This document shows, piece after piece, positions 4,301 to 47,210 of a stretch of 64,000 nucleotides of DNA. Under the pieces are notes generated by a model. The model was not told where the DNA came from and did no database searches. It saw only the letters and a program-made list of their open reading frames with translations. Location: contig CM037864.1 in NCBI GenBank assembly GCA_021292105.1, forward strand, positions 7,368,635 through 7,432,634, read 5' to 3'. Source of the DNA: Anadara kagoshimensis. Lineage: Eukaryota > Mollusca > Bivalvia > Arcoida > Arcidae. Each line of letters begins with the position of its first letter. Positions within the stretch are counted from its first letter, which is position 1. Both the position numbers and the translations under genes were made by a program.

Positions 4301-7300
4301 CTGATTTTTGATCTGAAAATGAAGATAAAAAAAAATATCAAGGAAAATAATGTAACAAGATTATATAAGTGTTAATGACAAATTATACATTCCAGTCAAA
4401 GAATTTAGTTTTTGAAAGTTACAAAGCATTCAGGCCAGTAACAAAGACTGTTTTACAGGCCTGGCTCAGATTCCGCAGGCAAACTAGCAATTTCTATTCA
4501 TATGATAGTTTGTATTGGGATTTTGTTACAAGCCAGTTTGGCTTGCAGGCATTCAATTTTCACTGATCCGAGTCAAAATTTACTGGCCTCAAACAGTACT
4601 AATTTCGAAGACAATACATCATAATCATAATTTAAACCACTAGCATTTCTTTGAATAAAAGGAGTGGAGTTGCCTCGACAGTGTTTTAAATTCTGAACCC
4701 TCAAGGGATTTTACAACTACAGTGAGGTCAGTTCAAGGATGATGGAAGAAACTGGAGTGCCTGCAGAAAGTGAACCAAGAAACTTTCTCACACTTGAATC
4801 TGTCCTAGTTTGATTTGAGCTTAGGCTGTGTGAGGCAGTGTGATCGGTAGACTGTGGAAGTATAAAAGGTGGGTTAATTGGTTGGTTGAATGCTGTTTAA
4901 CATCACCTCAGTAATTTTTCAGCAATTAATGACGAAACTATTTTTACTGAATGACAACTTTAAGAGCACTACCTGTTGTAAACTCGTCCACAAAAATGTA
5001 GACGAACATTACAGTCCACTCAGTCCAATATAAGTAGTTGGTACCAATCTAACCTCAGCCCTGTGGAAAGTGCTGAAGTTTCTAGCTCTGGTATCAAATT
5101 AAAACAAAAAACTTAATAAATACCTCGTTTTCAATTTTATCAGCAACTTCTTGCATTTCTGTGGAGACTTGATCCAGGTTGTCCCTAAGATCTCTGGATG
5201 TTGCAAGGTTGGGATAGAAGTCCACATAATTATTGGTCGTAACATTATGTACTTGTAACTTCAAATCATCTACTTTCTTGGTCAGAATTTCCAATTTACT
5301 CTGGACTTCTTGTCTCTCTAGTCGACCTGTATAACAAGAAAAAACACAGAATTATAGTACACTAAGCAAATAAAGAGCAATTACAGAGAGTCAGCAGGGA
5401 ACAGTTTAGGTACTCTTACAAAGAGTCAGCAGAGAACGGTTTAGGTACTCTTACAAAGAGTCAGCAGAGAACGGTTTAGGTACTCTTACAAAGAGTCAGC
5501 AGGGAACAGTTTAGGTACTCTTACAAAGAGTTGGCAGGGAACAGTTTAGGTACTCTTACAAAGAGTCAGCAGAGAACGGTTTAGGTACTCTTACAAAGAG
5601 TCAGCAGGGAACAGTTTAGGTACTCTTCCAAAGAGTCGGCAGGGAACAGTGTAGGTACTCTAACAAAGAGTCAGCAGGAAACAGTTTAGGTACTCTTCCA
5701 AAGAGTCAGCAGGGAACAGTTAAGGTACTCTTCCAAAGAGTCAGCAGGGAACAGTTAAGGTACTCTTAAAAAGAGTCAGCAGGGAACAGTTTAGGAACTC
5801 CTTTTTCATCAAAATAGTGCTCGACTGGAATCATCTACATGAAGAAATTCTGCTTGCAAAAACAGTAGAAGGCTTCAAGAATGCCACTCAAAACTGCTGC
5901 TAAAACATCAAGCAGCACTCTACTATTGATCATATATCCAGAATTGAATCCATTCAACGAACAGATACAGATAAATTGGGGACAAATCAGCAGCTCATCT
6001 CGGCCCCTAATTACCTACTGTATATTGCTTTATTTTCACAGTGTCAAATTGTCGCGGTTTGATGATGACTAGTGTATTCGCGGTGTCAAATTTTCGCGGT
6101 CTTATCTGATTAAAGGAAAACGACTCTAGGAAGATTAATGGGCCTGGTAATTCCAGTGTATATTCGCGACGGTTTTATTTTCGTGGAATACACTTGACCG
6201 CGAATATAGCAAAAATAAAACCACAGTGAAATATAAGCATTATACAGTATATCTTGATAGCTGCTATCTATCTCTGGGGCAGCTTTTAAGCCAATAGTAC
6301 CTTTCCATAGCTTGGCCACTTGGCAGTTGAGCATGGACGCTTTTCTTTGGCTCAGTATTAAAATTTCAACAAGTCTGTTCTGTATATGTATTAATCTTTA
6401 TCTAGAACATATACAATAGCTACCATAGACTCAATTAAGTTTAAGACAGAATTTGACATGGGCAGACATGACTGAGTGGTACTGTCACTGGCTTTTAAGT
6501 CAAGGGTTGTGTGTTCGAACCTCACTCGAGACTTAGAAAATTTCTGACATGATTTTTATCTCCTGTTCATACTAGAGTAGTAAAAAGCTAAAATTTTACT
6601 AGTATAGTCTTTCAGATGACTTAAAACCAAGGTTCTGTGCTTGCTTAAGACACATCTGTAGAGTTAAAAAAAAAAGAAGAGTAGGCCACCTGTGGTCGCT
6701 ACAGAGGGCACTACAATTAGAAGAGATTGAAACAGACTGAGCAACATAAAATAAATAAAACCAGAGTTCCTTACGGGGCAAGACAATTGATGTATCGCCG
6801 GCCATGCCCACAATGTTTGGACACTGGCCGCCATCACGGTACCAAAACAGCGTCACAGCAACTAATGACGTTCTAGTCTCAGTGACGCCATTAAACCGCA
6901 CAATTCAGGCCAAGTTTTCATTATTTTTGCGTGTCATTCAAGCACGTCAACCCTTTGTCTGCACATAGTGGGTGTGGCCGGCGATCCGTCAATTATTACA
7001 AGTTATCATGTACATATATATCGGACTGTATCTTACAGAAACTGCATGAAAAACAGTGTTGCTCATCTGATCCATCAAAACGTTTCAACCAAAAATTTTA
7101 ACATGTTTTTACTGTGTTATGATATGTGTAGTACTAGTAGTCTAGGTAGCTCATTTGGTAGAACATTCTCAAGACTACTGTGACTGGTCCCAGGTGAGGT
7201 CCTTGGTACAATTCTTTATTTTTTCTCTTTCTTAATAAAGTTTGGTGGCAAGTTTGGCCCTTGGAAATGGTGGGCAGGCAATTGTAGCCATGAAGTTCTT

Positions 7301-15300: not shown

Positions 15301-18300
15301 GTGTGATATTCACCGGAAAAATAAATATTGATCGAGGCGACAGCCGAGGTCAATATTTATTTTTCTGGTGAATATCAACCATATATAACCACTAAAAGTC
15401 CATACTGGTTAATATATAATTTAGCCACTGTGGCACTTCGGTTGACAATGTTTTCTCAAACCTGTGACCAGGCAATCTAACTATTTTACCGATGTTAGAT
15501 TTCCCTGCCCACCCTGGTTGATCACACTAAAATTATCCCGCATTAGTTAGATCAATCCGACTTTTTAAGTCTGATTCTATGAAAAAATAAATGTCATTCC
15601 GGATGAGACACACTCAATTACACACTACATTGTAAATCGATAATGCCATAACGTCAACGTTCTATGAAAAAAATAACAAGACACAATCACTTGCGTACAC
15701 TTAATTGATGACGTTCTAATCATTTTACGGAGAACGTCAACAAAAATCGATGACGTACACCGAATTTGATATTCACCGGAAAATCCGTGGTATATGATGT
15801 GAGATCCAATGGTCACGTGTTACCGTTTTAGCCAATCATAAAGATGGAATTTATTAATTATATAATAACAGTATTTATTACACCTCATTAGAAAAATATG
15901 ATACTATCTGTAATTTGATTGGATTGCTGGATCATGTGATCAGGGTGGAGAAAGCATTGTGTATTCCTCTAAAAAACATCATATCCCACCTCTTCGGAAC
16001 ACACCATGACGTCACAATGATAATCGATCACGACGTTCTAGCGTTTGCCTCCGATGAATTCCAATAGAAGAAAAAGCAATGAATTGGAGAAGGACTGATG
16101 TTTTCAGGCTGTCTTTTTAAAAATATTTTTCTTTCTTTCTGTCTTTCTTATTACCATGGTTTTTTTTCGGTATAATAAACATTTAATTGCCTTTGTTTGA
16201 GGGAGATATGAACATTTGTTCCCCCTTAACAAGTCACATTTCCCCCGGGTTTTGCCCTAGGGAAATATTACTTGTTGCGGGTAAACAAATGTTCATATCT
16301 CCCTCATCCAAAGGCAATAAATGCATAATATATATACTTAATATATAAGTATTTTTGTACGGCGTTTCACGATAGTGAACGTGTACTTTGCTATCGCTTT
16401 CTGCCAAGATCTGGCTTCTTTTCTATGAAATTAGTATGCATAGAAATAGTGCGGCTGGTAAATGAACGTGAAGGAAATGTATCTGTTTTATCGTGAAATA
16501 TGTATTCTGAAACGGGTAATGCATTTTGTTACATATGCACATTAGGAATAAATTACCAGAATATATTTCGGAATCTCTATGTTTCCATTCCTGGTAGCCA
16601 AAACCATTGGCTACTAATGTCTAAGGAATTCTTTCAAAAAGTAACCTATTTTAGCAAATTTGTGGAAAAATACAAATGTACTTTAAAAAGGACTATATTT
16701 TCACAAATTTAGAAAATTTGGCTACTAATTATTTCAAATTTGTAGAAACCTAGAATCTACTTAGTAATATATTGCGAGGGGATGCATCCAAAAATTTGTG
16801 CAATCTGGCGAACTGATCTCGTAAATACAATAAAAAGTAGTCCGGGAAGTTTGCGTCCTACCATGTAAAATCATAACTTTTTATGTAATAAACAGCAATG
16901 ACGGGTGGATTTAACTAATTCTTTATGAAATCTACGGTAATTTGAATTTGTTTTAAAGGGTATAATAAAGTATTTTGGTGTTGCGATACTCTGCTACATT
17001 TTAAAACTTATTTATCGATTACATTTGACTTCCGTGAAAGGGAGATAAATCATACAGTGCAATGTGCAAACGATTCGGAAGTAATGAAACGGGAATATTG
17101 TGAATGATAATCAGCAGTTTTTTAAAAACCAGACTTATACAGAAAATTATCCAGTTACATACAAACCCTAGAATGAACCTCCTAAAGCAGCGGTCGGGTT
17201 GGCAAAAACTCTACTTTCTCTTTATCCAAAATGACAAACAACGATCGATCCTGAAGGTACAATTGATAAAACTTTATTAAATTTTAATTACTGATCGTCT
17301 TTTTCATATATTGATGGAATTATTATTTTCTGTCATTTTGTCATTTTTTACTAATCAATACATGGTTTGGTACATTTTTTTTCTTTTTCAAAAACACCAT
17401 CTGTCTAACTATGCATCGATGCCCCCAGGGGGGGGGATTTTCAGTTATATTCATAGTTCTTTTCCAGCACCATTTTCCCAACTACGCCAATCAGCAGCAT
17501 GACAGTGCTATGTTTCTTACACAATATGATTGTATGAAGTTAAGATGAATGTTTTTAAAAAGCACTCAGTTCCCCATATTCAGGTTAATCTTTATAAAGG
17601 TCAAATACTGAGTCAAGTTTAAATCTGCCCTGAGCTTCTCAGACTAACGTTCACTGTAACTTCTTCTAAGTGGATGATGCATAATTGCGTCACTGAGTTT
17701 ATGGCAGATGATGCCCCAGTGCATAATTTGAAGTAAGCTTGGCTAATAGTTCCATCAGTAGCATATGATATTCACATTTTTAACTACTGTTTTAAAAAGA
17801 ATAATATTGGAGAGACACAGTTTCAATAAACTTGTCTAAAATTAGTGTTGAGTTTGTTTTCTTTGCATCCAAAAAGCATCACTACAGTATCGCTTTTACA
17901 AGCGTGCTCCTAAATGTGCATTAAAAAATTGTAATTTTTTAAGCTGATTGTTTCAAATTTTAAATTTTGTTATTGATTGAGGATTGTGTATATTACAGGT
18001 GGACCAGGTAGTGGTAGGGGGAAGATTTTATCTGATGCTGCAGAGGCTTTTGGACTGGTTCTGTTAAACATGGAACGTATACTCATTGATTCCTTATACA
18101 AAATAATGGAGGAAGAAGAAGATATAGATCCATGGAAAAGATCAAACTCATTACAGAAACTTGTCAAGGTGTGTAACCTTCATTTTTTGGTTTTTGCTAA
18201 GGGGCTCGCCACTCACTAGGGTATCACATAATCAATACCTCTTAACATTTCTGCAGAATGTTCATAATGTAATTTTCTGGAATAGCATTGTTTTAAATAT

Positions 18301-21300
18301 ATTTACAATTGAACCCATTTTCCGTCTATGAAAGCTATTTCTCATCATTATCGTAAATTTGCTTCATACGTCTATGAAAACGTATGTTTGACCTTTTTCA
18401 ACTGATGATTTTTTCATCAATGGAAGTAGGTGGGGTCACCTGTCATCCCACTCATGGATGACACCATCCTTCATTGAGATGTGGTAGTATCAATGAAAGT
18501 AGGCGAGGTCACCTGTCATCCCACCCATCAATGACGTCATCCTTCATTGAGGTGTGCTCGAAAGGTTCCATGATGCACTAGAACCAATGGAGTAAGTAAT
18601 TAACAAAATGAAATCTAACAATAGATTTAAGTCCATATAGCAGAATAGATATAAAAAAATGAATTGTAAATATAAGAAATGACACTTCTTTGCTCTTCAT
18701 GTTAAATTTGTGCCCGGAACACCCAGTATCATACTAGCATGAAGTGACCCCAAAACAATGTCATTTCTTAAGTAAAATGTGAACTTTTGTGATTCCATAT
18801 CCATGGAGATATCAATAAATATTGCTCTGAATAACTTCTTCCACAATGTGACATCAAAGAATGTAGGGATGGGTATCAGGCCTTAGATAGAATTTTTAAT
18901 TACACTTGGCACAGTGCCTAGTTGAATAAGAAAACCACTCGGCACTTGGAAATTTAACTCGGCACAGTCACCACAAGTGTAGAAGACAATATTGTGACAT
19001 ACGTGCAAGATTTAATTTTTCGTAAATTGATTATGTACCAGTATTAGAAATAAAAATAACAAAAATACAATTCTGTTGTTTTTTCTTTTATTTGTTATGG
19101 TATGAACTATTTGTTCATTACTGAATCAGCATCTGTTTCTTCTACACTTTCATTACCGGTAAAAGGTTCCAACACTGCATTCAGATCTAGCTGAGGTAGA
19201 TCAGGTAGGTCATCTGGATCCTGAATGTCTGGATCAGGCTCTGCATTTGCAGCTACTTGAGATGTACTTGTACTACTTTGACTTACAATGTACCTTTTAG
19301 TTTTTACATCTGTTAACCAAGTTTTGATTGACAATGAAGGGTCAAATTCCTCAAGTGATACTTCCATATTAGCAATTCGCATTAAGTCAGAAAGTGTGGA
19401 CTGTTTCAGTGAGCTTCTGAAGCTTGTCTTAATACGTTTCATTGCAGAAAAGCTTCTTTCACATTTAGCTGTACTTGGTGAGACAGAAAACATTATTTCA
19501 ACAAGCAACAGCACTGCTGTTAAATCTGCAGGCCTTGCCTGTAAGAAGGAAGTATAAATGTCAAAAGGTGTCATATCTCTCTGCCTATTTAGTCTGACCT
19601 TGAGTTCTAACCACTGATCAGGGATTGCACCCTGCTCGGCTTCTGAGAGTAAAGGTCTAAAGAAATCTACAAGATCTGTAATCTCCTCAATACCAAACTT
19701 TGACAGTGTTGGAAATTTAGGCCACTCAACATGATTGAACACTTTAAACAAACTTATAGGTGGAGATTCTAGTGCCTTAAACCTTTTATCAATATAGCAC
19801 AGAGTACTGTCAATAAAACTATTGAACAAAGTGTCAAAGTGCATGGTTGATTTCGTAATTTTCACTTTCTGTGAGTTAGTTTTGCCACACATAAGTTCTG
19901 AATTGCACAGATTGGATGTTAATTTTGTGGTAAATTCTCCATTACCATCTTTCAATTCCAAAAGATTTAGCAAACAAACCTCAAGTTTAACAGACACATC
20001 ACTTATAAACAAATGGTCATTTTGGAACTGTTTACCAATATCAGATAAAACTTTGGTAACATCAATCATAAAGTGGAGGAACCGAACAAATCTTTCAGAA
20101 CACAATTCCTTTACAATGCCCTTAGCTTTTGCCCGATCTTCACCTTTCCCAATACTAGCAGAATGATTAAAATGATAAACAACAGTCGGGAAACTTTTTT
20201 CTAGTGCAACCAAAGCTCTATGTCGACTAGCAACCCATCTTGTCTTTTGTAACCCTGTCTGTGTGATACTAGCTTCTTCAAGAACTGATGCTATTTCAAC
20301 AAGTTCCCTTCTGCGTTTTGGGGAATAATAATAAAACTTATACACCTGCTGAACAGTAGATTGAAAAGTGGACAAATAAGAAATCCCCTTAACAGCATCG
20401 AGAACTGCTAACTCTAAATTATGAGCAACGCAGTGTATTATGATTAAACCTCTACCTAACCTTTCCTTTTTTTACTACTTACACCGCTTTTACTTCCCAT
20501 CATTACTGAAGCTCCATCAAAATTACACCCAACAATTTTAGAATCAACTTTTTCCCTAGTCAAACCAACATTCTCTAAACCTGTATCTATTCCTTTTAAA
20601 ACACCATCAGAATTTGCAGAAGAAAGAGGAACAATATCAACAAACTGTGTCTTAGGTAGGCCATCCTCTCCAACAAAACGAACATATACAGTTTCTTGCT
20701 CAATAACAGCTGAATCAGTAGAACCATCTGCTAACACAGAAATGAACCTAGCCTTATTAACCAAATCATTGGAAACTTTGGATTTTTCTGTAGTGGCAAT
20801 AGATTTAATCATATTTATACAACCATCAACATTTTGGTACATTGTCCCAAGATCAACTCCATTTTTAACTTGTAAATGACAGAGATTTTTAAATTTAGAA
20901 AAAGACACATTTTCTTTGGCTATATAAAATGCAGTATTAAACAGTGCAGATGTCCTACGTTTTGCGGTTTCATCTAAATTTTTAGACATTTCTACTAATA
21001 ATTTATCAAGAGGGGCCGTTATTTTATTTTCAACATTCCATTTGCCTTCACATGCTATGTGTTTCGCTGACTTTCTATGAAAAACGAGACTTTCTTCTCT
21101 GAAATTACCGCCAGAGCCTGTACCAATAAATAATGTTGATTTTTGGTCCGCAATTAGTGGGTATTTACGACAGTATAAACAAAACATTGTGTCACTATTC
21201 TCATCATAATCTACCCAAGGGAATTTCTTTTTCCATTCAGGATTAAATTTTCTGACTTTCTTTTTAGGCTTATCATGAACTTCGGATTTTTCGCTTTCAG

Positions 21301-24300
21301 TTGCCGGCAACTTTCGTTTTGAAGCGGGTTTAGACATACTTCCACCTGCAACTTGTTCGTGGTCATCGTCAGGATCAACGGGAGTCTGATCGGTGTTTTC
21401 TTCTTTATCGGTTTTTCTTCTTGACTTTAGAAACTCAAAGTCAAACAATACAGCTTGTTTACGCTTCTTTGACATGTTTTACAGACATTTATAAACACTC
21501 GGAACATCGGTTGGATTTTATGTTACGCTAAGTGACTTCCGAATGCGAAACGGTTTTCACATATGATGCAAACGTTCAAATGATTTTGTTGATTCACGCT
21601 TGTAACAGAACGGCAAGATTTTTTTACAATGGGACCCGGATCGTTAAAATTGACCTCCTTATACACGATTTTCCCGACCTACACTAAATTGTCTGTTGTT
21701 TATTAATTGTAATATTATAAGCCCATGATGTATATGTCTGATAAATTTAACTAGGCACAGTGACGAGTGCAATAACAACTTCACTCGTCCCAGTACATAT
21801 TTCACTCGTCAGGACGAGTGGACAAGTGAATAATCGAAGCCCTGGGTATTATCAAAACTTTTGTATCGCAATATATTATGATACTCAGATGCTGTATCAC
21901 GATACGTATCGTAATATATTGTTTCAAAATAGATGAAGGCAAAGAGCCAAGAACCTTTAAACTGTATCAATCAAATATTGTTGTATGGTCTATCATATTG
22001 GTAGATATGCAAAAACTCTGTCTATGCTGTTGGCCATGTTGTTAGTAAATGTTATTATGGATAGAGTTTCATATTTGGCCGTTTCGTATCTGGTTGATAG
22101 CTTTACATATGGCGTAATATTTATATTTGGGTCAGTTGAGTTTATTAAACAAATTGAGTTTGTGCATTAATTAAGAGTCATTCTCTGTAAGGACCAAACT
22201 CCTCTGGAAATCGCATGTCACAGATTTTGAAAATATTTTACCTAAAAAATGGCTACATATAAGAAACAAAGAAAAAATGACCAAACTTAGAATTTTTTAT
22301 ATCGTTTCCATGGTAACCAACCACTAAGAGGCCAATCTCTGGATTTTCGGTCAAATTTGGGTGCGTGTCAAATATGCCGCTAGAATATGCCACTTATGCA
22401 GTTATGATGGTTGTCTTCAATATTTTGTTTTTATTCGGAACTTTGATGGTCATCCTTATCTTTTTCAAGTCAAAACTGTATGATTTTACAAGTTTTCATA
22501 TATTTGGAGTCAATTTTATCAAAAAAAATGCTCTAAAATTGACCTAAACTAGCTGAACTTTGAGATTGATTATTTTAAAAACGCGGGCACTGGAATAGTA
22601 TCACAAACATTTAAGTTATAAGGGAAAGTGGGTTTAACAAAATATCAAAAAATTAGAGTGGTACTTTTTGATTAAAGAAAATAAATCAGTTTCAAAGTTA
22701 CAGAAGTAGCCCTATCAGGGTCCCTTTTTAAGAAAGAATTATCTCCCCTTAGTAAACAATATGATATTTATTTTGTCTTTTTGATATGTTTCATCTTGTA
22801 AGTGCCAAACATTTAATCAATTAGCTATTTTTAAAAAATATGTATATTTACCTATACATATTTTGATAAACATCCTGGTAATAAAGCACAGAAATTATAT
22901 TTGTAATGAACTATTTTAATAAACACTTGAAAAAGTATTTAAATTTTACATGTTTAGAAATTTGTCCCCTTTATCAACAGAATTATCTCCCTTTGTTTAA
23001 TAAGAAATGGAATTTCTTTTCTCTTTGTTACGCTTTTTTTTAATTCCATGAAAAATATTTAATTTTTTGTACTCATAAATATCATGGTTTATTAGAAGTA
23101 TGTTTGAATCTTTATTTATGTTTACAATTTTATTAAATATGCTTTTATTATGTGATTGATTACAAAGCACAGAAACATTGTAATATTCTTATACTTTATA
23201 GGATTTTTTTAACAACTGGTTGGTGAATTTGGTTAAAGCTTGTTAACTATATACACTGTCTTGTCAATACAATTTTGGTTAATAATAGTTTTAATCTTTA
23301 GATGGAGTTATGTTTGAATGTTTTCTATCTTATAATATCATAGACTTGAGTTCAGTAATGGTGTTTAACGTCCCAGTGGTTGGCGAAAGAATAGGTAGTA
23401 CCAAACTTCAGGTAAAGGGATAGACATGGTCGGGGTTCAAACCCACGACCTCCCTCTTACTGAGAGAGCATTTTACCAACTGAGCTACAGCAGTGGTATA
23501 TATTATGATAGAAAAACCTGTAATGTTTATTAATTAAAGGCTCTAATAGATTTCAATAGATGCATGTTTACTTAATGTTTGCTTACGAGCAATATCATTT
23601 TAATTAGATCATGTTTATTTGTAAAGCTGCAACAACTGTAGGAAAATAGCATGCTTTGTTTAAAATGAGAAACTGTAATTAACCAAAATTTTAATGACAA
23701 GACAGTGTATATAGTTAACAAAGTTTAACTAAATTCCCAAACCAGGTGTTAGAAAATTCTTATAACGTATAAGAATATTACAAAGTTTCAGTGCATATTT
23801 ATTAAAACTGTAAACATATATAAAGATTCAAACATACAACTAATAAGCCATGATATTTATGAGTGCTAAAAATTAGATATTTTTCATGGAATTAAAAAAA
23901 AGTGCTACCAAGAGAAAAGAAATTCCATTTCTTGGTAAATAAAGGGAACTAATTCTGTTGATAAAGGGGACAAATTACTAAAAATGTAAAATTCAAATAC
24001 TTTTTCAAGTGTTTAATAAAATGGTTCATTACAAATATACTTTTTGAGCTTTACTGCCAGGATTTTAATCAAAATATATATAAGTTAATATACATATTTA
24101 AAAAAATAACTAATTGATTAAATGTTTGGCACTTACAAGATGAAACATATCAAAAAAGCAAAATAAATATCATATTGTTTACTAAGGGGAGATAATTCTT
24201 TCTTAAAAAGGGACCCTGATAGGGCTACTTCTGTAACTTTGAAACTGATTTATTTTCTTTAATCAAAAAGTACCACTCTAATTTTTTGATATTTTGTTGA

Positions 24301-27300
24301 ACCCACTTTCCCCAATAACTTAAATGTTTGTGATACTATTCCAGTGCCCGCATTTTTAAAATAATCAATCTCAAAGTTCAGCTAGTTTAGGTCAATTTTT
24401 GAGATAAAATTGACTTCAAATATATGAAAAATGTAAAATCATACAGTTTTGACTTGAAAAAGATAAGGATGACCATCAAAGTTCCAAATAAAAACAAATA
24501 TTGAAGATCACTATCATAAATAGCATATTCTAGTGGCATATTTGATATGCACCTAAAATTGACTGAAATTCCAGAGATTGGCCTCTTAGTGGTTCGTTAC
24601 CATGGAGACGACAATTTAAAATTTTGCATGGGCCTTTTCATTTTGATTTTTTATGTGTATTCAACAATTATGTGCAATATCATCAAAATCTGAGACATGT
24701 GATTTCCAAAATATAGCCAAATCGTCTGGTCCTTACAGAGAATGACTCTTAATGTAGGTTATAAAAAGTTAGGTTACTTGACTTAAAAAATACCAATATT
24801 ATCGGGTCAGATCTGCCATATCATGATATGTATGTATTATGAAATTGTATTGTGATATACAGGTATACCGATAATACCATGCATCTCTAATTTAAGAATG
24901 TTACTCTTAATAATCCTTTCCAATATTTAACATCAAAGATTGTTACCCTTAAAATACTCTTCTAATTATTACGTATTTTAACATGACCTGAGTTTTCCTT
25001 CATATGAAACATGAAGAGAGCGAATGTTGGTATAACAAACGATATACCCATTACTGTTCCGTTTTAATGACGTACTCCCTTGCTTATCTATGACATGATG
25101 CTATGTTCCACGAACAATAGTTGTGACGTAACTTTCATTCATAAAATCATTTATTTCAATGACGGTAAATCTCAACTGCCGAATTGTTTCAATGAACCTT
25201 TTTGCAAATAGATAGTAAAATGTACTTCCAAAGAAAGAGTTCGCAATTTACCCATGGTATATCATCGATGATCGAATAATACACTGGCTGTCGTTAATAT
25301 GGGGTGAATATATCACTCGGTGGCAAAGCCACCTTGTGATATATTCTTCTGCATGTGAACTTCGGCCCCTGTATTATTCAACAATATACCATGGGTTAAT
25401 GCTGATTATTTCTTAAACATTTATAACATTTTGCTCTTGTGTTGTGATAAAGATGGTTATTAAATATATCTTCATCAATTTTTCTTTGTTTTATTGTTTA
25501 ATTTCAGGCAAAACCAGAATTATTAAGAGTAGATTTTGTACTAAAACAGTTAACAAATAAACTGAAGACTCTGGACAGTAACAGATGCTATCTTGTAGAC
25601 TTCATGCCTAATCTCAAGTTTATACTTATGTCCAATTTATTCATCAAAGAATGTAACAATGAACTTAGGAATTTTGAAACAATGGTAAGTAATAACAAGA
25701 CAATTTTTTTGTTTTTTGATGGTGGCATAAACAGTGCTCATTCTATAAGGGGTAATGATCATTGATTCCTTATCAGGGATAAAGATTAGCAGAGGCCCAG
25801 TAGCCCATGGCTAGGGATGTCACAATATATTGGTAGACCGATATATCGATCGATGGGCTACTCCCGACAATAATCGATATCGATTTTTCAAATATCGATA
25901 GGTAACTAGAAAATCCAAAACTTCAGAAAAAACAATTAAAAGATCAATTAAACAAAACAATGCCTTACTTGTTTTTCTTTATATTTATTCAAACGAACTC
26001 CATTGTCATAACATGTGCATTTGTACAGGTAAGTACGTCATCAATTCTTGGGCACCTCTGAAATGATGCGAAATCCTTCAGATGCTTGTGCACAGTGGGA
26101 AGTACTCCAAGCATGTGCATGATTAAGATCTGCTTCAGTCTTTTAAGCCTCTAGCTTACGTTGTTAAGCACGGTAATTCGAAAATGCTTCATACGACATG
26201 ATTTTAGGGAGTTAGATACGATGTATCAAGACTTTTCACCACATAGATTATTTTTCCGATATGTATCGATAGTTATGGGCATGAAAAGACCGATAATCGA
26301 TATGGAATTTCAGTGGCGATAGCCAGCCCTACCCATGGCTACTAAAAATCAGACTTGATCCCTTAATGTTTACACATTTTAGTTATTTATTTTTATTACG
26401 ACTACTTAGGTCAAGGTTCGGGAAAACATTAAATGTTGGGGACAGGGGGTCTTTTGCTCTCAAGAGACAGTTCTAGTAATTTTTATGTCAGCAGTACCAG
26501 GCAAAAGGATAATGATTTACTGTATGTTAAAGTTAGTTTTAAAACAAAGCTAAGCTGTATGATGATTAAATGAGCCAGCCATAACTTACTTACCAGTACT
26601 TACTTATTTTCTTCATCCAACTGATAAGTGTCTTCCATTTGTCATTGTCCTTTTTTCCTGTATCTCTACTTGGATGGTTCTCCAGGTGGTTGCCATATGT
26701 TGAGCTTGCCCACAGGTGCATCCACGCTTCTGTAACTCTACTTGGATGCTTCTCTTCCAGGTGGTACATGTTCTGCCAGGCTTTCTATTTCCAGGTGGTA
26801 CATGGTCTACCAGGCTTTCTATTTCCAGGTGGTACATGTTCTGCCAGGCTTTCTATTTCCACGTGGTATGTTGTCTGCCAGGCTTTCTATTTCCAGGTGG
26901 TACGTTGTCTGCCAGGCTTTCTATTTCCAGGTGGCACGTGGTCTGCCAGGCTTTCTATTTCCAGGTGGCATTCAGTCTGCCTGGCTTTCTATTTCCAGGT
27001 GGTATGTTGTCTGCCAGGCTTTCTATTTACAGGTGGTACGTGGTCTGCCAGGCTTTCTATTTCCATATGGTACATTGTCTGCACGGCTTTCTATTTCCAG
27101 GTGGTACGTTGTCTGCCAGGCTTTCTATTTCCAGGTGGTACATGGTCTACCAGGCTTTCTATTTCCAGGTGGTACGTGGTCTGCCAGGCTTTCTATTTCC
27201 AGGTGGTACATGGTCTGTTAGGCTTTCTATTTCCAGGTGGTACATGTTCTGCCAGGCTTTCTATTTCTAGGTGGTACATGGTCTACCAGGCTTTCTATTT

Positions 27301-30300
27301 CCAGGTGGTACATGGTCTACCAGGCTTTCTATTTCCAGGTGGTACATGGTCTGCCAGGCTTTCTATTTCCAGGTGGTACGTTGTCTGCCAGGCTTTCTAT
27401 TTCCAGGTGGTACATTGTCTGCCAGGCTTTCTATTTCCAGGTGGTACATTGTCTGCCAGGCTTTCTATTTCCAGGTGGTACATGGTCTACCAGGCTTCCT
27501 ATTTCCAGGTGGTACATGGTCTACCAGGCTTTCTATTTCCAGGTGGTACGTTGTCTGCCAGGCTTTCTATTTCCAGGTGGTACATGGTCTACCAGGCTTT
27601 CTATTTCCAGGTGGTACATGGTCTGCCAGGCTTTCTATTTCCAGGTGGTACGTTGTCTGCCAGGCTTTCTATTTCCAGGTGGTACATTGTCTGCCAGGCT
27701 TTCTATTTCCAGGTGGTACGTTGTCTGCCCGACTTTCTATTTCCAGGTGGTACATGGTCTACCAGGCTTTCTATTTCCAGGTGGTACGTGGTCTACCAGA
27801 CTCTATTTCCAGGTGGTACGTGGTCTACCAGACTCTATTTCCAGGTAGTACGTGGTCTGCCAGGCTTTCTATTTCCAGGTGGTACGTTGTCTGCCAGGCT
27901 TTCTATTTCCAGGTGGTACGTGGTCTGCCAGGCTTTCTATTTCCAGGTGGTACGTTGTCTGCCAGGCTTTCTATTTCCAGGTGGTACGTGGTCTGCCAGG
28001 CTTTCTATTTCCAGGTTGTACGTTGTCTGCCAGGCTTTCTATTTCCAGGTGGTACATGGTCTGCCAGGCTTTCTATTTCCAGGTGGTACGTTGTCTGCCA
28101 GGCTTTCTATTTCCAGTGGTACGTGGTCTACCATTTTTATTTCTAAATGCCAATTGCTTGGTTGAGACTTGAGAGAACAGTAATTACCTATTTTATGTGT
28201 GTATACAGTGTGATTATTATTTACATTGTAGTATCCAGTGTCATTTGCCATACATCTGTCCATACCACCAGATAAATATGAGAAAAAGAAAAAGGCAGCA
28301 CAGTGTGCTCAAGCACAACCAGATAAACCCAAACAAAATGAAGGAACAAAACAATCAGATGAAGCTGATACATCAAGGACCAGTGTAAGTACATGTGTAT
28401 ATCTAGATACCAAACAATCAGATGAAGCTGATACATGAAGGACCAGTGTAAGTACATGTGTATATCTAGATACCAAACAATCAGATGAGGCTGATACATC
28501 AAGGACCAGTGTAAGTACATGTGTAACAACAAAACAATCAGATGAGGCTGATACATCAAGGACCAGCGTAAGTACATGTGTATATCTAGATACCAAACAA
28601 TCAGATGAGGCTGATACATCAAGGACCAGTGTAAGTACATGTGTATATCTAGATACCAAACAACAAAACAATCAGATGAGGCTGATACATCAAGGACCAG
28701 TGTAAGTACATGTGTATATCTAGATACCAAACATTCAGATGAGGCTGATACGTCAAGGACCAGTGTAAGTACATGTGTATATCTAGATACCAAACAACAA
28801 AACAATCAGATGAGGCTGATACATCAAGGACCAGTGTAAGTACATGTGTATATCTAGATACCAAACAACAAAACAATCAGATGAGGCTGATACATCAAGG
28901 ACCAGCGTAAGTACATGTGTATATCTAGATACCAAACAATCAGATGAGGCTGATACATCAAGGGCCAGTGTAAGTACATGTGTATATCTAGATACCAAAC
29001 AACAAAACAATCAGATGAGGCTGATACATCAAGGACCAGTGTAAGTACATGTGTATATCTAAATACCAAACAACAAAACAATCAGATGAGGCCGATACAT
29101 CAAGGACCAGTGTAAGTACATGTGTATATCTAGATAACAAACAAAACAATCAGATGAGGCTGATACATCAAGGACCAGCGTAAGTACATGTGTATATCTA
29201 GATACCAAACAACAAAACAATCAGATGAGGCTGATACATCAAGGACCAGTGTAAGTACATGTGTATATCTAAATACCAAACAACAAAACAATCAGATGAG
29301 GCTGATACATCAAGGACCAGTGTAAGTACATGTGTATATCTAAATACCAAACAACAAAACAATCAGATGAGGCCGATACATCAAGGACCAGTGTAAGTAC
29401 ATGTGTATATCTAAATACCAAACAACAAAACAATCAGATGAGGCTGATACATCAAGGACCAGTGTAAGTACATGTGTATATCTAAATACCAAACAACAAA
29501 ACAATCAGATGAGGCTGATACATCAAGGACCAGTGTAAGTACATGTGTATATCTAAATACCAAACAACAAAACAATCAGATGAGGCTGATACATCAAGGA
29601 CCAGTGTAAGTACATGTGTATATCTAGATACCAAACAATTAGATGAGGCTGATACATCAAGGACCAGCGTAAGTACATGTGTATATCTAGATACCAAACA
29701 ATTAGATGAGGCTGATACATCAAGGACCAATGTAAGTACATGTGTATATCTAGATACCAAACAACAAAACAATCAGATGAGGCTGATACATCAAGGACCA
29801 GCGTAAGTACATGTGTATATCTAGATACCAAACAACAAAACAATCAGATGAGGCTGATACATCAAGGACCAGTGTAAGTACATCTGTATATCTAGATACC
29901 AAACAATCAGATGAGGCTGATACATCAAGGACAAGCGTAAGTACATGTGTATATCTAGATACCAAACAATCAGATGAGGCTGATACATCAAGGACCAGTG
30001 TAAGTACATGTGTATATCTAGATACCAAACAATCAGATGAGGCTGATACATCAAGGACCAGTGTAAGTACATGTGTATATCTAGATACCAAACAATCAGA
30101 TGAGGCTGATACATCAAGGACCAGTGTAAGTACATGTGTAACAACAAAACAATCAGATGAGGCTGATACATCAAGGACCAGCGTAAGTACATGTGTATAT
30201 CTAGATACCAAACAATCAGATGAGGCTGATACATCAAGGACCAGTGTAAGTACATGTGTATATCTAGATACCAAACAACAAAACAATCAGATGAGGCTGA

Positions 30301-33300
30301 TACATCAAGGACCAGTGTAAGTACATGTGTATATCTAGATACCAAACATTCAGATGAGGCTGATACGTCAAGGACCAGTGTAAGTACATGTGTATATCTA
30401 GATACCAAACAACAAAACAATCAGATGAGGCTGATACATCAAGGACCAGTGTAAGTACATGTGTATATCTAGATACCAAACAACAAAACAATCAGATGAG
30501 GCTGATACATCAAGGACCAGCGTAAGTACATGTGTATATCTAGATACCAAACAATCAGATGAGGCTGATACATCAAGGGCCAGTGTAAGTACATGTGTAT
30601 ATCTAGATACCAAACAACAAAACAATCAGATGAGGCTGATACATCAAGGACCAGTGTAAGTACATCTGTATATCTAGATACCAAACAATCAGATGAGGCT
30701 GATACATCAAGGACAAGCGTAAGTACATGTGTATATCTAGATACCAAACAATCAGATGAGGCTGATACATCAAGGACCAGTGTAAGTACATGTGTATATC
30801 TAGATACCAAACAATCAGATGAGGCTGATACATCAAGGACCAGTGTAAGTACATGTGTATATCTAGATACCAAACAATCAGATGAGGCTGATACATCAAG
30901 GACCAGCGTAAGTACATGTGTATATCTAGATACCAAACAATCAGATGAGGCTGATACATCAAGGACCAGTGTAAGTACATGTGTATATCTAGATACCAAA
31001 CAATCAGATGAGGCTGATACATCAAGGACCAGTGTAAGTACATGTGTATATCTAGATACCAAACAATCAGATGAGGCTGATACATCAAGGACCAGTGTAA
31101 GTACATGTGTATATCTAGATACCAAACAATCAGATGAGGCTGATACATCAAGGACCAGCGTAAGTACATGTGTATATCTAGATACCAAACAACAAAACAA
31201 TCAGATGAGGCTGATACATCAAGGACCAGCGTAAGTACATGTGTATATCTAGATACCAAACCTTGGTTTTAAATATATCCAGCGATCTTGTTACATTCAG
31301 GGCTCTCGCTGGGTTGTTTTTGGGGTGGATATTCTGTCCCATTCACAATCCAAAAACTTTGCCAATTTTCACAATTTTGGAAATTTCAGAATTAAAAACA
31401 ATTTTCCAAAGTTTGGAAATTTTTAGCTTTTAAAACTACATTAGGAGTTTTCTATCACTTTTTCTTTTTCACAATTTTGGCTATTATAATGGTGTTTTTC
31501 ACAATTGAAAGGGTCTCAGTCCCATTCAAAAGAGGGTGAGAGACATCCCTCCATTTTTTTTAAAACCACCCTCTTTCTTCAAGATTAGGAGATCTGAAAT
31601 AAAACAAATAACATTGTGACATGCTGGAAATAGATTAACATCTAGTGTATCATGGTTGTTTTGAGAATTTTAGTGGTTAAATTGAGAAATTTATCCAAGC
31701 TCTAAATCAGAGACATGAAATAATACTATAAATTTGTCTACCTCTGCTTGTTATTGCGCAATTGGATGTATGCAAATATTTTGAATTGTACTTTTGGGCT
31801 TGAGGCCTTGTATACTTTTGTAATAAAGATATATATATTGATAAATTTTGGTAATTTTTTCCTCAGGGGAAATGAAATCTACATTTTAGATTTCTAGTTC
31901 TCATCTGAATAAGATAAACCCACAACCCTTCACTTGTGGAAATAATACTGTGTCATCCCAGTGTAACAGTGACTTACAGTGTTAATTCTAGAGCGGGCCT
32001 TGGAACTATTAAACCTTTATATTGGCAAATAATTCCATTGTTAATGTCTCAGTGGGCTGTATTTAACATTATTTGAATGCAAAAATATTGATGTTATGGT
32101 GTTTTAGAGGAAAAATTTTGAAAATGACCCTTTCTGAAAAATCCTAGATTGAACACTGCCATCTTATTGACAGGTGCTTGCATCACATTTATATACATCG
32201 ACATAATTTGGGTTTAACTTTCTGTTTCTTCAGAAACGGTTCACATTACATCACAACAGCCTAAAGCACTTTTTGGACTATTACTCTAAGCATGACAAGT
32301 TGGTTACACTGGACGTATCAAGTGGAGACACAGAATTGATATGGGAGAGAATATGTGAATTATTTGATGATGTGAATCTAACCCATGAAAGACCTGTCAA
32401 CACCATTGTCTTATTTGTATTTGGTAAGTATACCAATTAAAAACAAACATACTAATCCGTGTAGGAATCACAATCAAAGTAAATACTTCGAAACTGACAA
32501 GTTAGGCTAAACACATGAAAATCCACCAGAGAAGTGAATTCTTGTACTCTGGAAGGGTAAGACTGTAAGCACCTCCTGTTTAGCTAGCTACACCTGCCAT
32601 GTGTGTAATCAAAATGGAGTGAATAGGAACAAAAGCTTACATGAAGGTGAAATAAAGTTTTTAATATTACAACATACTCTAATCCATTTTATTATCTCCC
32701 ATCTTTTGAAGAAAAAACCACTGTGGTAGATCAATTGGTAGAGTGCTCGCTATGAGGGATACTGTTGGTTTGAACCCTTGCAGGGTCTGACCAAGAGTTG
32801 TAAATAGGTAGTGACTGATGGCAGGCATGGCACATTAAAAACCCTCCCTGCACATTGCTCTGAGCCCACTGCAAAGGTAAAAATTTCGGACACATCACCT
32901 ATAGCTGGTGATGTCTCAATATAAGTGAAATATTCTTATATTGAGACATAAAACTCCATTCAGTCAATCAATTCTTTCAAAGAAAAAGGAGAATATTAAA
33001 TTTGAACTTTTGTCCATTCTTGTCTAGAGTAATTTTCTAAAACTATGAAGCACTATTTTACTAAATTAGGTGCAAAACATCAACATTGGTAAGAGATGTG
33101 CATATCTTTAACTGTAGTTGGTTTGCAGATTTTTAAAAATCTCTTTTGTAGTTTGTCATTGGAACTATCACTATGTTTCATTTAAAAAAACTTAAATTAA
33201 CAAACCATTAGTGTCAGGATAATATTTTCTTAATACTCAACTGATAATGACAAGATAGGCCAATTTGGCTCAGTGACTAAGTTATGGGGTAGTCAGTGGT

Positions 33301-36300
33301 GCAAGAGCTTATTTTAGATTGATTACAGCATTTGACATGATATGGCTTGATTGTACCGGTAACTTCTGGACATTTTATTCCCACACAGGAGGTTCTGTTT
33401 TCTGTCAGACCTACAAATAATCATTTGTATGTATTTGTTTTACAGATGAGAATGAACTTGAGAAAATGAATATTGGCAGATTTCAGATCCAGGTGGTATC
33501 TTTATGTGACATTGTAAATGATGAGAAAGATGAACCTGTAAGTTACAAAGCTTTTAGAGTTACTTGTACATCTATTAAGTTACACATAGTTTTTACAGTT
33601 ATACTTATTTTAGATGAGAAAGATGAACCAATAAGTTACATCTTAAATTACATGTAGTATATAGCTACACTTGTCTTAACCTAACACAGCATTGATACAG
33701 ATCTGTAAAACTCCTGAAATTTGAAAAATGCCTGGAAAAAGTTATTGAATTTTTTAACTAAATCATTAAAAAATTATGAAATTTTAACTCATGTATGTAT
33801 ACAGTATATGAAATTTACAAAATATAATGTATGTTTCCTGTCATCATTATCAGATTTTTTTTGTTGCACAAAGATCCAGATTCATGGAATTTTATCATTT
33901 TCCTAAAAAGACAGAGAATATTTTTTTTCTGGAATATTCAACAGATGAATAATTTATTTTAATTTTATGAATTAAATTTCTAGATTATACAATATAGTAT
34001 AAAGTTGTAAGTACAATGATATATCACTTGATCTTACCCAGTTTCACAGTCATAACTTAACTAATATGTTCCATAGCTAGTTCAAGTAACTTAGCTGCAT
34101 TTATGATTTATACAAGTTTTACATTTTATAATTTGCCTTTTATAGCTTGCCTACATGAAGTACAGTAGATGTTACGTTATAGTTTTGGAATTAGCTTGAA
34201 CATGGCCATCAGATTTAGCTTTCAATTTATGTAGTTGTGCAGACGGAAATATGCTGTTCTTCTAAATGTGTTCTGATGTACAGTAAAACTTCTTTATAAA
34301 AGTGTCCCTATATATTGTTATTCTATTTAATTTGAGGTAAATTTGAGTTAAGAAAAGATTGTGAAACTGGATAGTGATGTTTTAACTACTGACCAAAGTC
34401 TGGACAACTGACCAACACGCATGTGGAATGGGTTTTTTTAATACAGGAACCATAGAACTAAATCATAGGGTTCCGGATGTCTGAGCATGTGGCGCTGTTC
34501 TTCTGGCGAAACATGACAACACTTGCTCACAAAAATCACGCCATTGTTGTTTATATATAATATGACATTATACATATATTTACACTTTGTTTTATTATCA
34601 ATTTTATACATGTATATTGATTTTTTCTTGCACTTTCATCTATAATATTAATATTACTTAATATTTGTGATTGAGGCTAAAAAAATGCAAAACACTGCAA
34701 TACAGAAGAAATATGAAACTAATTTCTTATTGTGGCAACAGGTCTTCTCTATCAGTAACTAAATAAAAATACTTACAACAATATTCTCATTAACTGATTT
34801 AAGAAATCTAACACTTATTTTATATATTGATTAATTTTTTTCTTTATTGTGCACCCTCTATCATTTAATATTCATTTTGGATCAAAATTGGTTTTTCATA
34901 TATGGGACTAAAAATCAAGACTACCAGTAATCCAAAATTTCAAGATATCCAGAACTTTTTTTACCTTTCAAAAACAAAATTGCTTATAATTTTTAGTCCA
35001 TTTTGCAAAAATTTGAGAGATTCAGTTTCCATAAATTTGTGATATTCAATTTCCATTAGTTTGAGATAATAATTTTTTTTTTTAAATTCTAGAAATACAT
35101 GTTATAATTTCCAGAAATTTGGGATATTGAAGTTTGTAAATAATTAATTTCTATTGTACATACTTTGAAGTACAGACATATGATGATGTTTCATTGGTTT
35201 GCAAAATGATATACTGTATAGTTGCTATTATTTACTGGGGATTTAATTTCGCTACATTCGCAGTTTGACTTAATAGCACCAAATTAAATACCAAGTGAAC
35301 ATTTTCATCCATAAGTGGATAGCATAGAGTAGAAATTTCTACTTTGCTTATAACTGGTGACATCTTGATATGATATCTTTCTTTGTTCCTGTAGGTGAAG
35401 CTGCTGCAGTCTCTATGCAAATATATTGATAAATGCCATCCGACCCAGAAAGCATTCGCTGTGAACCTAGCTGGTACTTCAATCACCAGTGATATAGTAT
35501 GTGAGGTTAGTATGTCTTAACCAGGGGTTCAAAATTATGTTTTGTAATAGAAAGTCCAGGACCTTTTGCCTTTATTTTGGGCAGGCCCTATATAAAATTT
35601 TGAACGTCTAGTATCACCATGGAAAGGTGCATGTAAAATTATGTAATCATATAGAAAAAGCAATATTATACTGGTAAAAACAGCAGATCCATCAGTCATT
35701 TACCTTTTAAATATCAAAGGATGCAATGTAAAATCAGTAGGTCCAGAAACCTCTGACCTGGAGAATTAACTCATCATTATAAAGATCTTGTCATATTGTT
35801 TTATCCAGCCTTTTATTAACTTACCCATACAAAATACTGATACAGAAAAGCCAGGTTTCCATAAATTTATAATTATTTGTAGCCAAATTTCCAAAATTTG
35901 CTAAAATATACTTATAGTCCTTTTTAAAGTATTTTTAACAATTTGCTAAAATAGATTCCTTTTTGGAAGAATTTATCAGAAATGTAGAAGCTCAATGACG
36001 ATTTTAGCTACCAGGAATGAAAAAATAGTGAAATTGATGCCTGATTTGATGAATTTTTTTGCCCGCTTAAGTCCATGGCTTAGGAAGTGTATAAACATTA
36101 AACTTTTCTGTCAAAGTGCTTTTATGGACTTGAGTTTCATGTTGGGATTTCTCATAATAATTTGGCGAAATGATGAAAAACCTTTTTATAAAACATTATA
36201 ACATAACTCTGATATTTTCATTGATATCATAGGAAAAGAAGAAGAACATCATGTTTTATGATATAGGAAAGACCTTACTGGAGTCGCATCTTATACAGTT

Positions 36301-44059: not shown

Positions 44060-45410
44060 ATGCTGACATCATACTTAAGACAGACAGCCATACATCATGA
44101 TGACGTATGGTGACGGTCTGTTACGTTCTCAGCTTGTTCACTCCACGAGTGAGGACACGTTTTAGATTATGGAAGAAAAGTTGGATAAATTATTCTCTTC
44201 TATGACGGATAGGCTCAATTCCATAGAGGCAAAAATTGAATTCATTTTGGAGGAAACAAACCGGAATACTCAAATTATCAAAGAAGTGCAATTTGAACGA
44301 AAAAGTTCAGATATCAACGAGGACATTCCTCATTTACACCACGTGGTGGCACCCAGTCCCACACAGTCGTGTGCCACTGGGATAAAACCGGATATCCAGG
44401 GCGAGTTTAATTCTTTAAAAGACTCATTAGGCAGAGTTAAATTGCCTAATAAACTAAAAATTAATGACTCGCGTCAAGGAATCCAGCGCTCTGACCATGG
44501 ACTATTAAACGTCATATCTATATGTGGTCGTTTTGCCGAAACTTCGGTGAAATTATTAAGCATGTTGGAACCTGGTGAAAAGGTTAGTCAAGAAACTTTA
44601 GAAAATTTATTTTTAATTAATCATGTACAAATCAAATATTTACAAGATGAATATGCGTCTATATTAGTGAATAGTCAGTTTGATCCAGCAACCTCAAAAC
44701 TTTTCAGGTGTTTGCAGAGAAATACATCTGGACTTAATACTGAATCTTTAGATACTCTGCGTACAGCGTCCGCCATCGCAGCAACAGCTAAGCTTCCACC
44801 CCAGCGTCAGTATCAGGGTCGGGGCCGAGCACGTGCTGGAAAGGACATATTTTCAAATTTTTCACATAGGGTATTTCCAAATCGTAGACCTTATAATGTT
44901 AACAAACATACCGAGGGAGGTATAATTCCAACAGATACGAATAAAGATGATTAGATCTAATGATATTAATTATAACTGTTAGCATCCGTTTAATTGTGAC
45001 ATTATATATTTTACATGATTAACATATTGAAATGCTCTTGAAATGTGTTTTGGATTTTTAAATAAACATATTAAGTCCTGGGAATCGATATCGGCACCAC
45101 GCCATGTGTTAGAGTGGTTGGAAAAAGGAGTCCCGATTCCATTTTGTAAGGAACCTAATTCATTTGAGTTGGAAAATAGTTCTACTACATTTAAGCAAAC
45201 TGAATTTTTGAATAGTAAAATCAGTAGGTTGCATTCCATAAGATGTATTGAAAAGTGTATTGTTAAGCCTAAATGTGTAAGTCCTATTGGCTGTGTTCCA
45301 AAACGAAAAAACAAGTTTCGTCTTATTACGGATCTTAAAGTATTAAATTCTTATTGTGATACTCCCAAATATAGGAATGAGGACATACGAGATGCTGCGG
45401 AAATAGGTGT
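44060..45410 (+). mobile_element. DIRS-like retroelement fossil, 5' portion, broken
   Basis: Two coding remnants lie in order. The first, at 44169-44954, is a gag-like region with an N-terminal coiled coil and an Arg/Gly-rich tail (QGRGRARAGK). The second, at about 45043-45410, is the start of a reverse transcriptase of the DIRS type, recognisable by ISAPRHVLEWLEKGVP and the PKRKNKFRLITDLKVLNSYC block. The rest of the polymerase, the RNase H and tyrosine recombinase parts and the terminal repeats are not seen. The element is broken and incomplete. The gag-like part looks only moderately decayed, which suggests middle age. Confidence 0.7.
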
Positions 45411-47210
45411 GTATGTGAGAAGTATAGGTGAGTGAACGAGTGTGTGAGAATATGGCAATTAGTAAATGTTTATTTTTATATATGTTAAATAAACATTTAT
45501 ATACTTTGTACGTTAGTGTTTGTTCCCTATGGCATAGATTTACAAAAAGCACTTTTAGCTGGATTACTCGTTATGTAATGGGGGGTGTCTCCGATTTGTA
45601 AAATAAAAATAATGATGTTATAACTACAGAACATATGACATATTTCAGTGTTTTTCTGTGGCAAAATATAATTTCTTTCAATTAAAGTGTTATTTTTATT
45701 ATTTTAAATAACCTTTGTTAGAATGCTGGATAAAAATATCCAAGCACAACTCGTGATGCGGCTACTAAAATAGGATGAGACCTGATACAAAGGGTTGTAT
45801 GTATACACACTGTGTATTAAAAATATGTATTTATCAGATATTCAAGTAACACGCAGGCCTGTTTTGAAGTTATTAAGTTTTAAATCCTTATAAAAATACA
45901 TTGATTAGCATGGTACATACATGGTATGGTATATACATGTAATTAAATAAAAGGATGCCATTTCAAAAGTGTCTCCTAAATTAACCCAAAGTTGGAAATC
46001 TCCAATCATGTACATGATCAAAATATGAATAGCCAATGGCATATTATTGTTCCTATGAAGTTAAATGTTAAATAGTTTTCCAGAAAAGTGGTGAAAAAAA
46101 TGTTGGAAGAAAATGAGTAAACTTTATACATGTATGTACCCCACTTCATTTTGAGGACATAATACATTTGAATTACAATGTATACCCTTAGTCACAACTT
46201 AGAAAATAAAATTGAGTTATAAAACACACACACATGCACCCACACAAACAAACATGTAAAATATGCACATTACAACATGTGTAAAACTAAATTATTTTAT
46301 AAGGCAAGTTGACTTTGTTTCAACCTTAGAGTTGACCATTAACAAGACCACTCGATACCGATGACAATTACCGTACATTTATTTTATTATTTATATATGT
46401 AAGAAAAACGCATATTTGTAAATTGATGTTGGACAAATATGAAACTAATCTGTAATACAGGTATTTTAGTTAATAAGGTTTAAATGTATTGATTGTTTTC
46501 AGTATTATAAGTCCACATGTACCCTGTCAGGGATTTATGTTTATGTTTGACAAGGTACATGTGGTTGTGTAACCTGTCAAAACCCTGTATGATGTTTTTG
46601 TCTCACTTAAAGAGAGGCACTAGTTCAGTCTTCCATTTTTTATTCTGTGTGCCTTACATACATTGTGGCAATGTTTGTATACTTTACTTAACTAGAGTTC
46701 CACGATGTACAAGTTACTTCCATTTTATTGCTAAACACTGTACCCCGAAACAAAGTTCCATGTAGCCTGGCAAGTTAATAATCGCTATGCGAAAAATTTC
46801 TTTGAAGCATGACAATTATCAATGTAATTATTCAGATTATTTTGAACATCATTTCTGCCATTCCAGACAGAAGATTCATGACGTGAATTAGTGATTTCTC
46901 TTTCCATGGACTTAGCTAGCACTTTTATGTACAACCAAATAAAATGGCACTTTCATCCTAAACAAGTTAAAGTTACTGCAAAATGGAAAATTTTGGTTTC
47001 TGTGAATTTTCATGAAAAACTACATTTCCATTTGGTATTGTTGACAAAAGCAATGCAAATCCTACAACATTATACAGAGCTGCAACATTTACAATACTTT
47101 TACAGTGCCTTGGTATTCTTACAAATTTACAAACACCAAATTTTCCGATTTTTGAGTAAATGATAAATAAATAACACCATTTTGTGACACATGACAAATG
47201 TTGAACTGTT
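45411..47210. other. Intergenic / MED25 3' flank
   Basis: No gene seen. A hairpin with CCACATGTACC and GGTACATGTGG arms is at 46513-46565. Candidate poly(A) signals for MED25 on the minus strand (TTTATT on the plus strand) occur near 46636 and 46378. The rest is AT-rich. Confidence 0.45.

Follow-up and report, generated by a model that had tools for sequence, protein, structure and literature searches.

In the bivalve Anadara kagoshimensis (Arcidae), the end of one coding exon has been repeated head to tail, together with its own 5′ splice site (donor), through most of 3 kb of the following intron, and arrays of the same kind start at the ends of 18 other predicted exons of this genome. The array analyzed here lies in intron 4 of a kinase-like gene within a 64,000-nucleotide stretch of contig CM037864.1 (GenBank assembly GCA_021292105.1; forward strand, positions 7,368,635 to 7,432,634). 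We refer to this whole stretch as the window and give positions within it. A tandem duplication over the exon-intron border probably founded the array, which would be a nearly neutral minisatellite, tolerated since its first donor works. The whole analysis rests on one assembly of one genome, and the exons are predictions from sequence. Two features describe the array:

28349..31261, plus strand: donor array, the exon 4 end with its 5′ splice site, 44 donors (repeat finding and donor-word search)
28438..29050, plus strand: block of 613 bp with an exact second copy at 30053 (self-comparison)

Tandem Repeats Finder reported an array at 28349 to 31261 with a period of 63, 44.1 copies, and 92% matches, and a word search located 44 GTAAGTAC donors between 28385 and 31231, in agreement with the initial annotation, which had counted about 44 copies of the exon end with its splice site. 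The 43 spacings between donors were 63 bp (22 cases), 71 bp (18), 57 bp (2), and 68 bp (1); because none exceeds 71 bp, every unit of the array holds a donor. The 71-bp unit has 8 additional bases where the intron part meets the exon part. It is indeed the exon end that is repeated, although it contributes 36 bp to a 63-bp unit and 40 bp to a 71-bp unit (the latter by eye), slightly fewer than the "about 45" bases first proposed. A consensus donor had likewise been claimed for each unit. This is accurate for the intron side of all 44 donors, but on the exon side the final base is T (32 donors) or C (12) and never the consensus G. From −3 to +6, 31 of the 44 donors, donor 1 among them, share AGTGTAAGT. 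With many head-to-tail copies of a unit within the range of about 10 to 100 bp, the array is a minisatellite; since it starts 36 bp inside predicted exon 4, crosses that exon's own donor, and carries a donor sequence in each unit, it is a splice-donor minisatellite in register with the exon 4 end, as expected from the earlier proposal that it was born across the exon-intron border.

Fourteen types are represented among the 43 inter-donor units, and the same order of nine consecutive units occurs again within the array. These patterns, the block duplication, and the divergence of the unit core suggest a young, self-homogenizing minisatellite; internal block duplication is frequent in minisatellites. 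The genome contains at least 43 matches to the first two units (window 28340 to 28460), and all those listed fall inside the array. An array created or strongly inflated by the assembly is very improbable. The exact 613-bp repeat, with its two copies 1,615 bp apart, would fit such an error, but the 44 units contain 11 distinct sequences of the 49-bp core, with a mean pairwise difference of 2.5%, and like architecture is present at other loci.

The consequences of using each donor follow from the model of the host gene, whose exons keep the numbering of the initial annotation:

17980..18168, plus strand: coding exon 2, encoding the P-loop of the kinase-like protein, 5′ end provisional (open frame, GTGTGT donor, weak P-loop matches below the cutoff)
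25508..25684, plus strand: coding exon 3 (TTTCAG acceptor, GTAAGT donor, phase 0)
28232..28384, plus strand: coding exon 4, whose final 36 to 40 bp supply the exon share of the repeat unit (ttacattgtag acceptor; frame continuous with exons 3 and 5)
28385..28386, plus strand: donor 1, the sole donor that yields the full protein (frame computation)
28436..28438, plus strand: in-frame TGA in the second unit, included by every later donor (frame computation)
32234..32423, plus strand: coding exon 5, the C-terminal part of the kinase-like domain (cttcag acceptor, GTAAGT donor; within weak ADK and UMP-CMP kinase matches)
33446..33537, plus strand: coding exon 6 (ttttacag acceptor, GTAAGT donor)

The five modeled exons read as a single open frame. 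Against Pfam, the joined protein matched ADK at 14.4 bits (cutoff, 26.8) over residues 5 to 194 of 267, and its best match in PDB was a UMP-CMP kinase (E = 0.0024). Because the ADK match is below the cutoff, we call the gene kinase-like rather than a family member; no profile match above the cutoff assigned it to the adenylate or UMP-CMP kinase family, and none of its exons searched singly against Pfam gave one. Exon 4 terminates in a low-complexity stretch, at approximately the position of the lid in adenylate/UMP-type kinases. No paralogue lacking the array was found among the genome matches, both of which were the gene itself.

The acceptor at 32234 and the TGA at 28436 lie where the initial annotation had placed them, and its conclusion that the second donor would include this stop, leaving donor 1 as the only route to the full protein, now extends to each of donors 2 to 44. 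The TGA arises from a base difference private to the second unit. It lies 199 nucleotides upstream of the exon 5/6 junction when donor 2 is used, and farther upstream with later donors. Stops that far before an exon junction are expected to lead to decay, so decay would be predicted for transcripts spliced from donors 2 to 44. Since donor 1 is identical from −3 to +6 to most of its competitors, it has no sequence advantage over them, and any advantage must come from position and exon context.

We propose the following origin. A tandem duplication with its left end about 36 to 40 bp inside exon 4 and its right end about 27 to 31 bp into intron 4 would have produced a second donor, and unequal exchange and slippage could then have expanded the pair into a 44-unit minisatellite. 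The copies would be tolerated because a working donor precedes them and they leave with the intron, making the array nearly neutral. Donor 1 would most likely serve most transcripts, with any leak to later donors ending at the stop at 28436 and in decay.

The same process would also have struck other predicted exon ends of this genome. A search with GTAAGTACATGTG retrieved a locus on contig C2 (L009) at which the end and donor of another exon are repeated in a 52-bp unit; GTAAGTACATGTGTAT is common to L009 and the window, but the exon parts differ. Further arrays were sought as three tandem consensus donors, and the upstream edge was examined in 27 donor arrays (the window, L009, L052, L053, L054, and sets of 12 and 10 others). 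Outside this sample are L010, L011, and the listed locus C2:17005838, as well as C3:68852502, C12:1872296, C1:42445951, C3:42798328, and C12:5920394, which resemble copies of arrays already examined. By eye, 19 of the 27 arrays (that of the window and 18 others) start at a coding exon end. An acceptor and an open frame lie upstream in 18 of these 19; the remaining one, L052, was called mainly from its Pfam match. An automatic rule made 17 exon-end calls among the 27, all within the 19 called by eye, against a false-call background of 17.7% of 6,601 GT sites in the window (binomial P = 2e-7). For L058 and L084, the exon chosen by this rule was not the one seen by eye but a shorter one, and for L009 the rule used an acceptor lying 18 bases farther upstream in the same frame; it missed L052 and L059 and was inapplicable to L089, whose first donor is 21 bases from the edge. 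In five of the eight negatives (L056, L065, L089, L090, and L091), a repeat or degenerate repeat continues toward the edge of the examined sequence, and an exon end is not disproved there. As a control, 10 arrays were picked by the reversed donor word and left unmatched for donor content; none had an exon-end donor, with both edges of L102 and one edge of L094 unseen. One control, L100, repeats the donor-like GTGAGA and received no exon call.

The exons concerned are unrelated. Among the 15 searched against Pfam besides that of the window (L062, L063, and L086 were left out of this set), four matched above the cutoff, identifying 7B2/secretogranin V (Secretogranin_V, 1e-11), a P-loop GTPase (MMR_HSR1, 1e-6), an immunoglobulin (Ig) domain (Ig_3, 1e-10), and a cadherin-like repeat (Cadherin_3, 3e-6). 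A fifth match, Myosin_head (8e-5), was below the cutoff yet clear, and the other 10 exons gave a weak match or none. The exon of L054 resembles NOA1. Among the 19 exon-end donor arrays, 5 had a unit length divisible by 3, and in 15 a stop lay within the first unit that would be retained; with no preference for multiples of 3 and a stop so often met, the copies are not retained for coding. For the window array itself, coding use was rejected also because its 71-bp units shift the frame.

Arrays at unrelated exons also bear on a function suggested in the initial annotation, that of a sink for the U1 small nuclear ribonucleoprotein. The intron side is perfect in all 44 donors, which would favor a sink, but cellular U1 is abundant and the 44 sites of one gene are few by comparison. 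A general repeat process fits the recurrence of the arrays better, and we give the sink almost no credence.

By eye, three of the arrays have further features. At about 5930 to 6661, what is probably a small DNA transposon, an insert whose ends are inverted (ggtccaacaagaaa), splits the donor array of L009. At L052 (4248 to 5720), the array at the 7B2 exon is interrupted by a stretch that starts like the endonuclease of a long interspersed nuclear element, after which the array resumes. In L087, each unit joins a pyrimidine tract with AG to 15 exon-derived bases followed by a donor and thus resembles a tiny exon.

Arrays also occur at acceptors. Three tandem copies of TTTTTCAGG were found at 194 places, compared to 77 for the reversed word. 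In 16 acceptor arrays whose downstream edge was examined, 6 enter a coding exon start with its 3′ splice site (L068, L075, L077, L078, L079, and L082), 8 do not, and L072 and L081 could be called neither way; these calls were made by eye and without a control. Five of the six exons were searched against Pfam and one matched above the cutoff, the aminomethyltransferase exon of L075 (GCV_T, 3.5e-23). The process is therefore not donor specific, as an undirected process predicts.

Arrays of this kind are already known from human ABCA7 and IFI6. In intron 18 of human ABCA7, a 25-bp variable number tandem repeat (VNTR) ranges from 12 to about 427 units and opens with the GT that serves as the exon 18 donor; an isoform at 2 ± 1% retains a single unit and meets a stop (PMC5954066). 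Both arrays start from the exon's own donor and run to dozens or hundreds of units. The second ABCA7 unit serves as the donor of the minor stop-bearing isoform, and the later Anadara donors are likewise computed to lead to a stop. In contrast, the ABCA7 unit opens with the donor GT, whereas each Anadara unit includes 36 to 40 bp of coding exon; splicing and length variation have been measured in ABCA7, whereas the Anadara array is known from its sequence alone. By analogy with ABCA7, its length likely varies between individuals. IFI6 (6-16, G1P3) contains a minisatellite with several splice donors (Turri et al. 1995, as cited in PMC4526556 and PMC2572611), and known transcript variants use its downstream units as donors (PMC4526556). 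The Anadara array similarly offers multiple donors to one transcript, but the IFI6 repeat is short, at 12 bp, whereas the units here are mostly 63 to 71 bp and later donors reach a stop. What distinguishes the Anadara array is its larger unit, which takes in coding exon, and the recurrence of the kind in one genome. No report of such a genome-wide class appeared among the literature titles and abstract openings listed, and no paper in the collection searched dealt jointly with tandem repeats, exon-intron boundaries, and bivalves; several of the listings give the first few of many matches and do not imply absence in print.

In unit size, homogenized copies, and internal block duplication, the array resembles ordinary intronic minisatellites and VNTRs, but, unlike these, it overlaps a splice site as well as coding sequence. 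Intron creation by tandem duplication begins with a duplication that includes a splice signal, as would have happened here. We rejected it as a description of this locus: the unit brings a donor only, the gene model keeps the acceptor at 32234, and an existing intron has been lengthened at its donor end with no new intron formed.

Several observations weigh against a near-neutral array arising from undirected duplication. First, such arrays need not be neutral. In ABCA7, longer arrays are accompanied by increased skipping of exon 19 and reduced expression (PMC5954066). Array length in Anadara could accordingly tune expression by setting the share of donor 1, the leak into the stop, or the skipping of exon 5; the sequence that most donors share with donor 1 and the stop reached from each later donor would be consistent with such tuning. 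We nevertheless consider it unlikely, because the similar arrays at the ends of 18 further exons suggest a general process and one-unit retention in ABCA7 did not vary with VNTR length (PMC5954066).

Second, the units are rich in exon. Per unit, the 19 exon-end donor arrays contain 17 to 78 bp of exon (median, 42) and 3 to 52 bp of intron, the latter just 3 to 9 bases in 8 arrays. The exon part exceeds the intron part in 15 of 19 (sign test, P = 0.019; Wilcoxon test, P = 0.002), a share slightly inflated by assigning ambiguous junction bases to the exon, and blind placement alone does not predict this. Base composition may contribute: the guanine-plus-cytosine (GC) content of the array units in the window exceeded that of the window as a whole in 6 of 6, and a higher GC content of units could favor exons in register. 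The exons of the gene, at 35.7% GC against 33.8%, leave room for this to explain the exon-rich register partly at most.

Third, counts by place are inconsistent. Tandem donor words exceeded their reversed controls in two comparisons (901 versus 178 and 729 versus 241 places) and fell below them in two others (104 versus 118 and 88 versus 126); 100 places each were listed of the 901, 104, 194, 729, 178, and 126, and all 88 for three tandem copies of CAGGTAAGTA. Fourth, the richness of this genome in minisatellites is judged from the single window, 12.4% of which consists of tandem repeats with a period of 10 or more, over half of that being the donor array and its neighbor in intron 3.

The exon-rich register would fit a donor or exon end that is itself a preferred seed of array birth, for example via transcription, R-loops, or splice-site repair. 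The 88 places with three tandem CAGGTAAGTA (period, 35 to 65) reduce to 16 loci and 14 families, 8 of which are exon-end arrays by eye (L055, L062, L084, L085, L086, L087, L088, and L092), and the 100 places listed for the reversed word reduce to 6 families, including a very large one. Relative to single occurrences (3,223 for CAGGTAAGTA and 3,969 for the reversed word), families per site were 2 to 3 times more frequent for the donor word, with borderline significance: Fisher's P is 0.026 for the 6 control families among the matches listed and would become 0.049 or 0.087 with one or two more among the other 26 places. This excess is in part expected because many of the 3,223 sites should be true donors; that number counts every occurrence, true donor or not. 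Given also that control places outnumber donor places for this word and that acceptors bear arrays too, we regard a preferred seed as improbable, less so than an artefact but more so than tuning. An undirected, near-neutral minisatellite thus remains our preferred explanation of the window array.

Tentatively, splice-site minisatellites could form a genome-wide class here, with an exon-rich register at donors and perhaps hundreds of introns involved, a possibility to which we assign rather less than even chances. The number is extrapolated from the 13 exon-end arrays that contain CAGGTAAGTA, one 10-base donor word; donors vary widely.

Upstream of exon 4 lies a second array:

26755..28133, plus strand: minisatellite in intron 3, 34 bp × 40.7, with 33 exact acceptor-like TTTCTATTTCCAG (repeat finding; stops 99 bp upstream of exon 4)

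Exon 4 therefore sits between decoy acceptors in intron 3 and decoy donors in intron 4. Elsewhere in the window, two long open reading frames on the minus strand of intron 2 (19107 to 21478) resemble a hAT-type transposase by eye, and open reading frames at 44166 to 45435 resemble a retroelement reverse transcriptase, also by eye.

The choice of the spliceosome among near-identical donors is usually studied with few sites in minigenes. With one exon opposite 44 donors, and 18 other predicted exons with arrays of their own, the question of whether position alone governs donor choice becomes addressable in a natural setting. If these arrays do form a genome-wide class, each would be a natural multicopy competition assay for 5′ splice-site choice, and the birth of arrays may be linked to exon ends rather than random. 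Our results suggest that ABCA7 and IFI6 may be instances of something that arises repeatedly in certain genomes, at donor and acceptor ends of introns alike.

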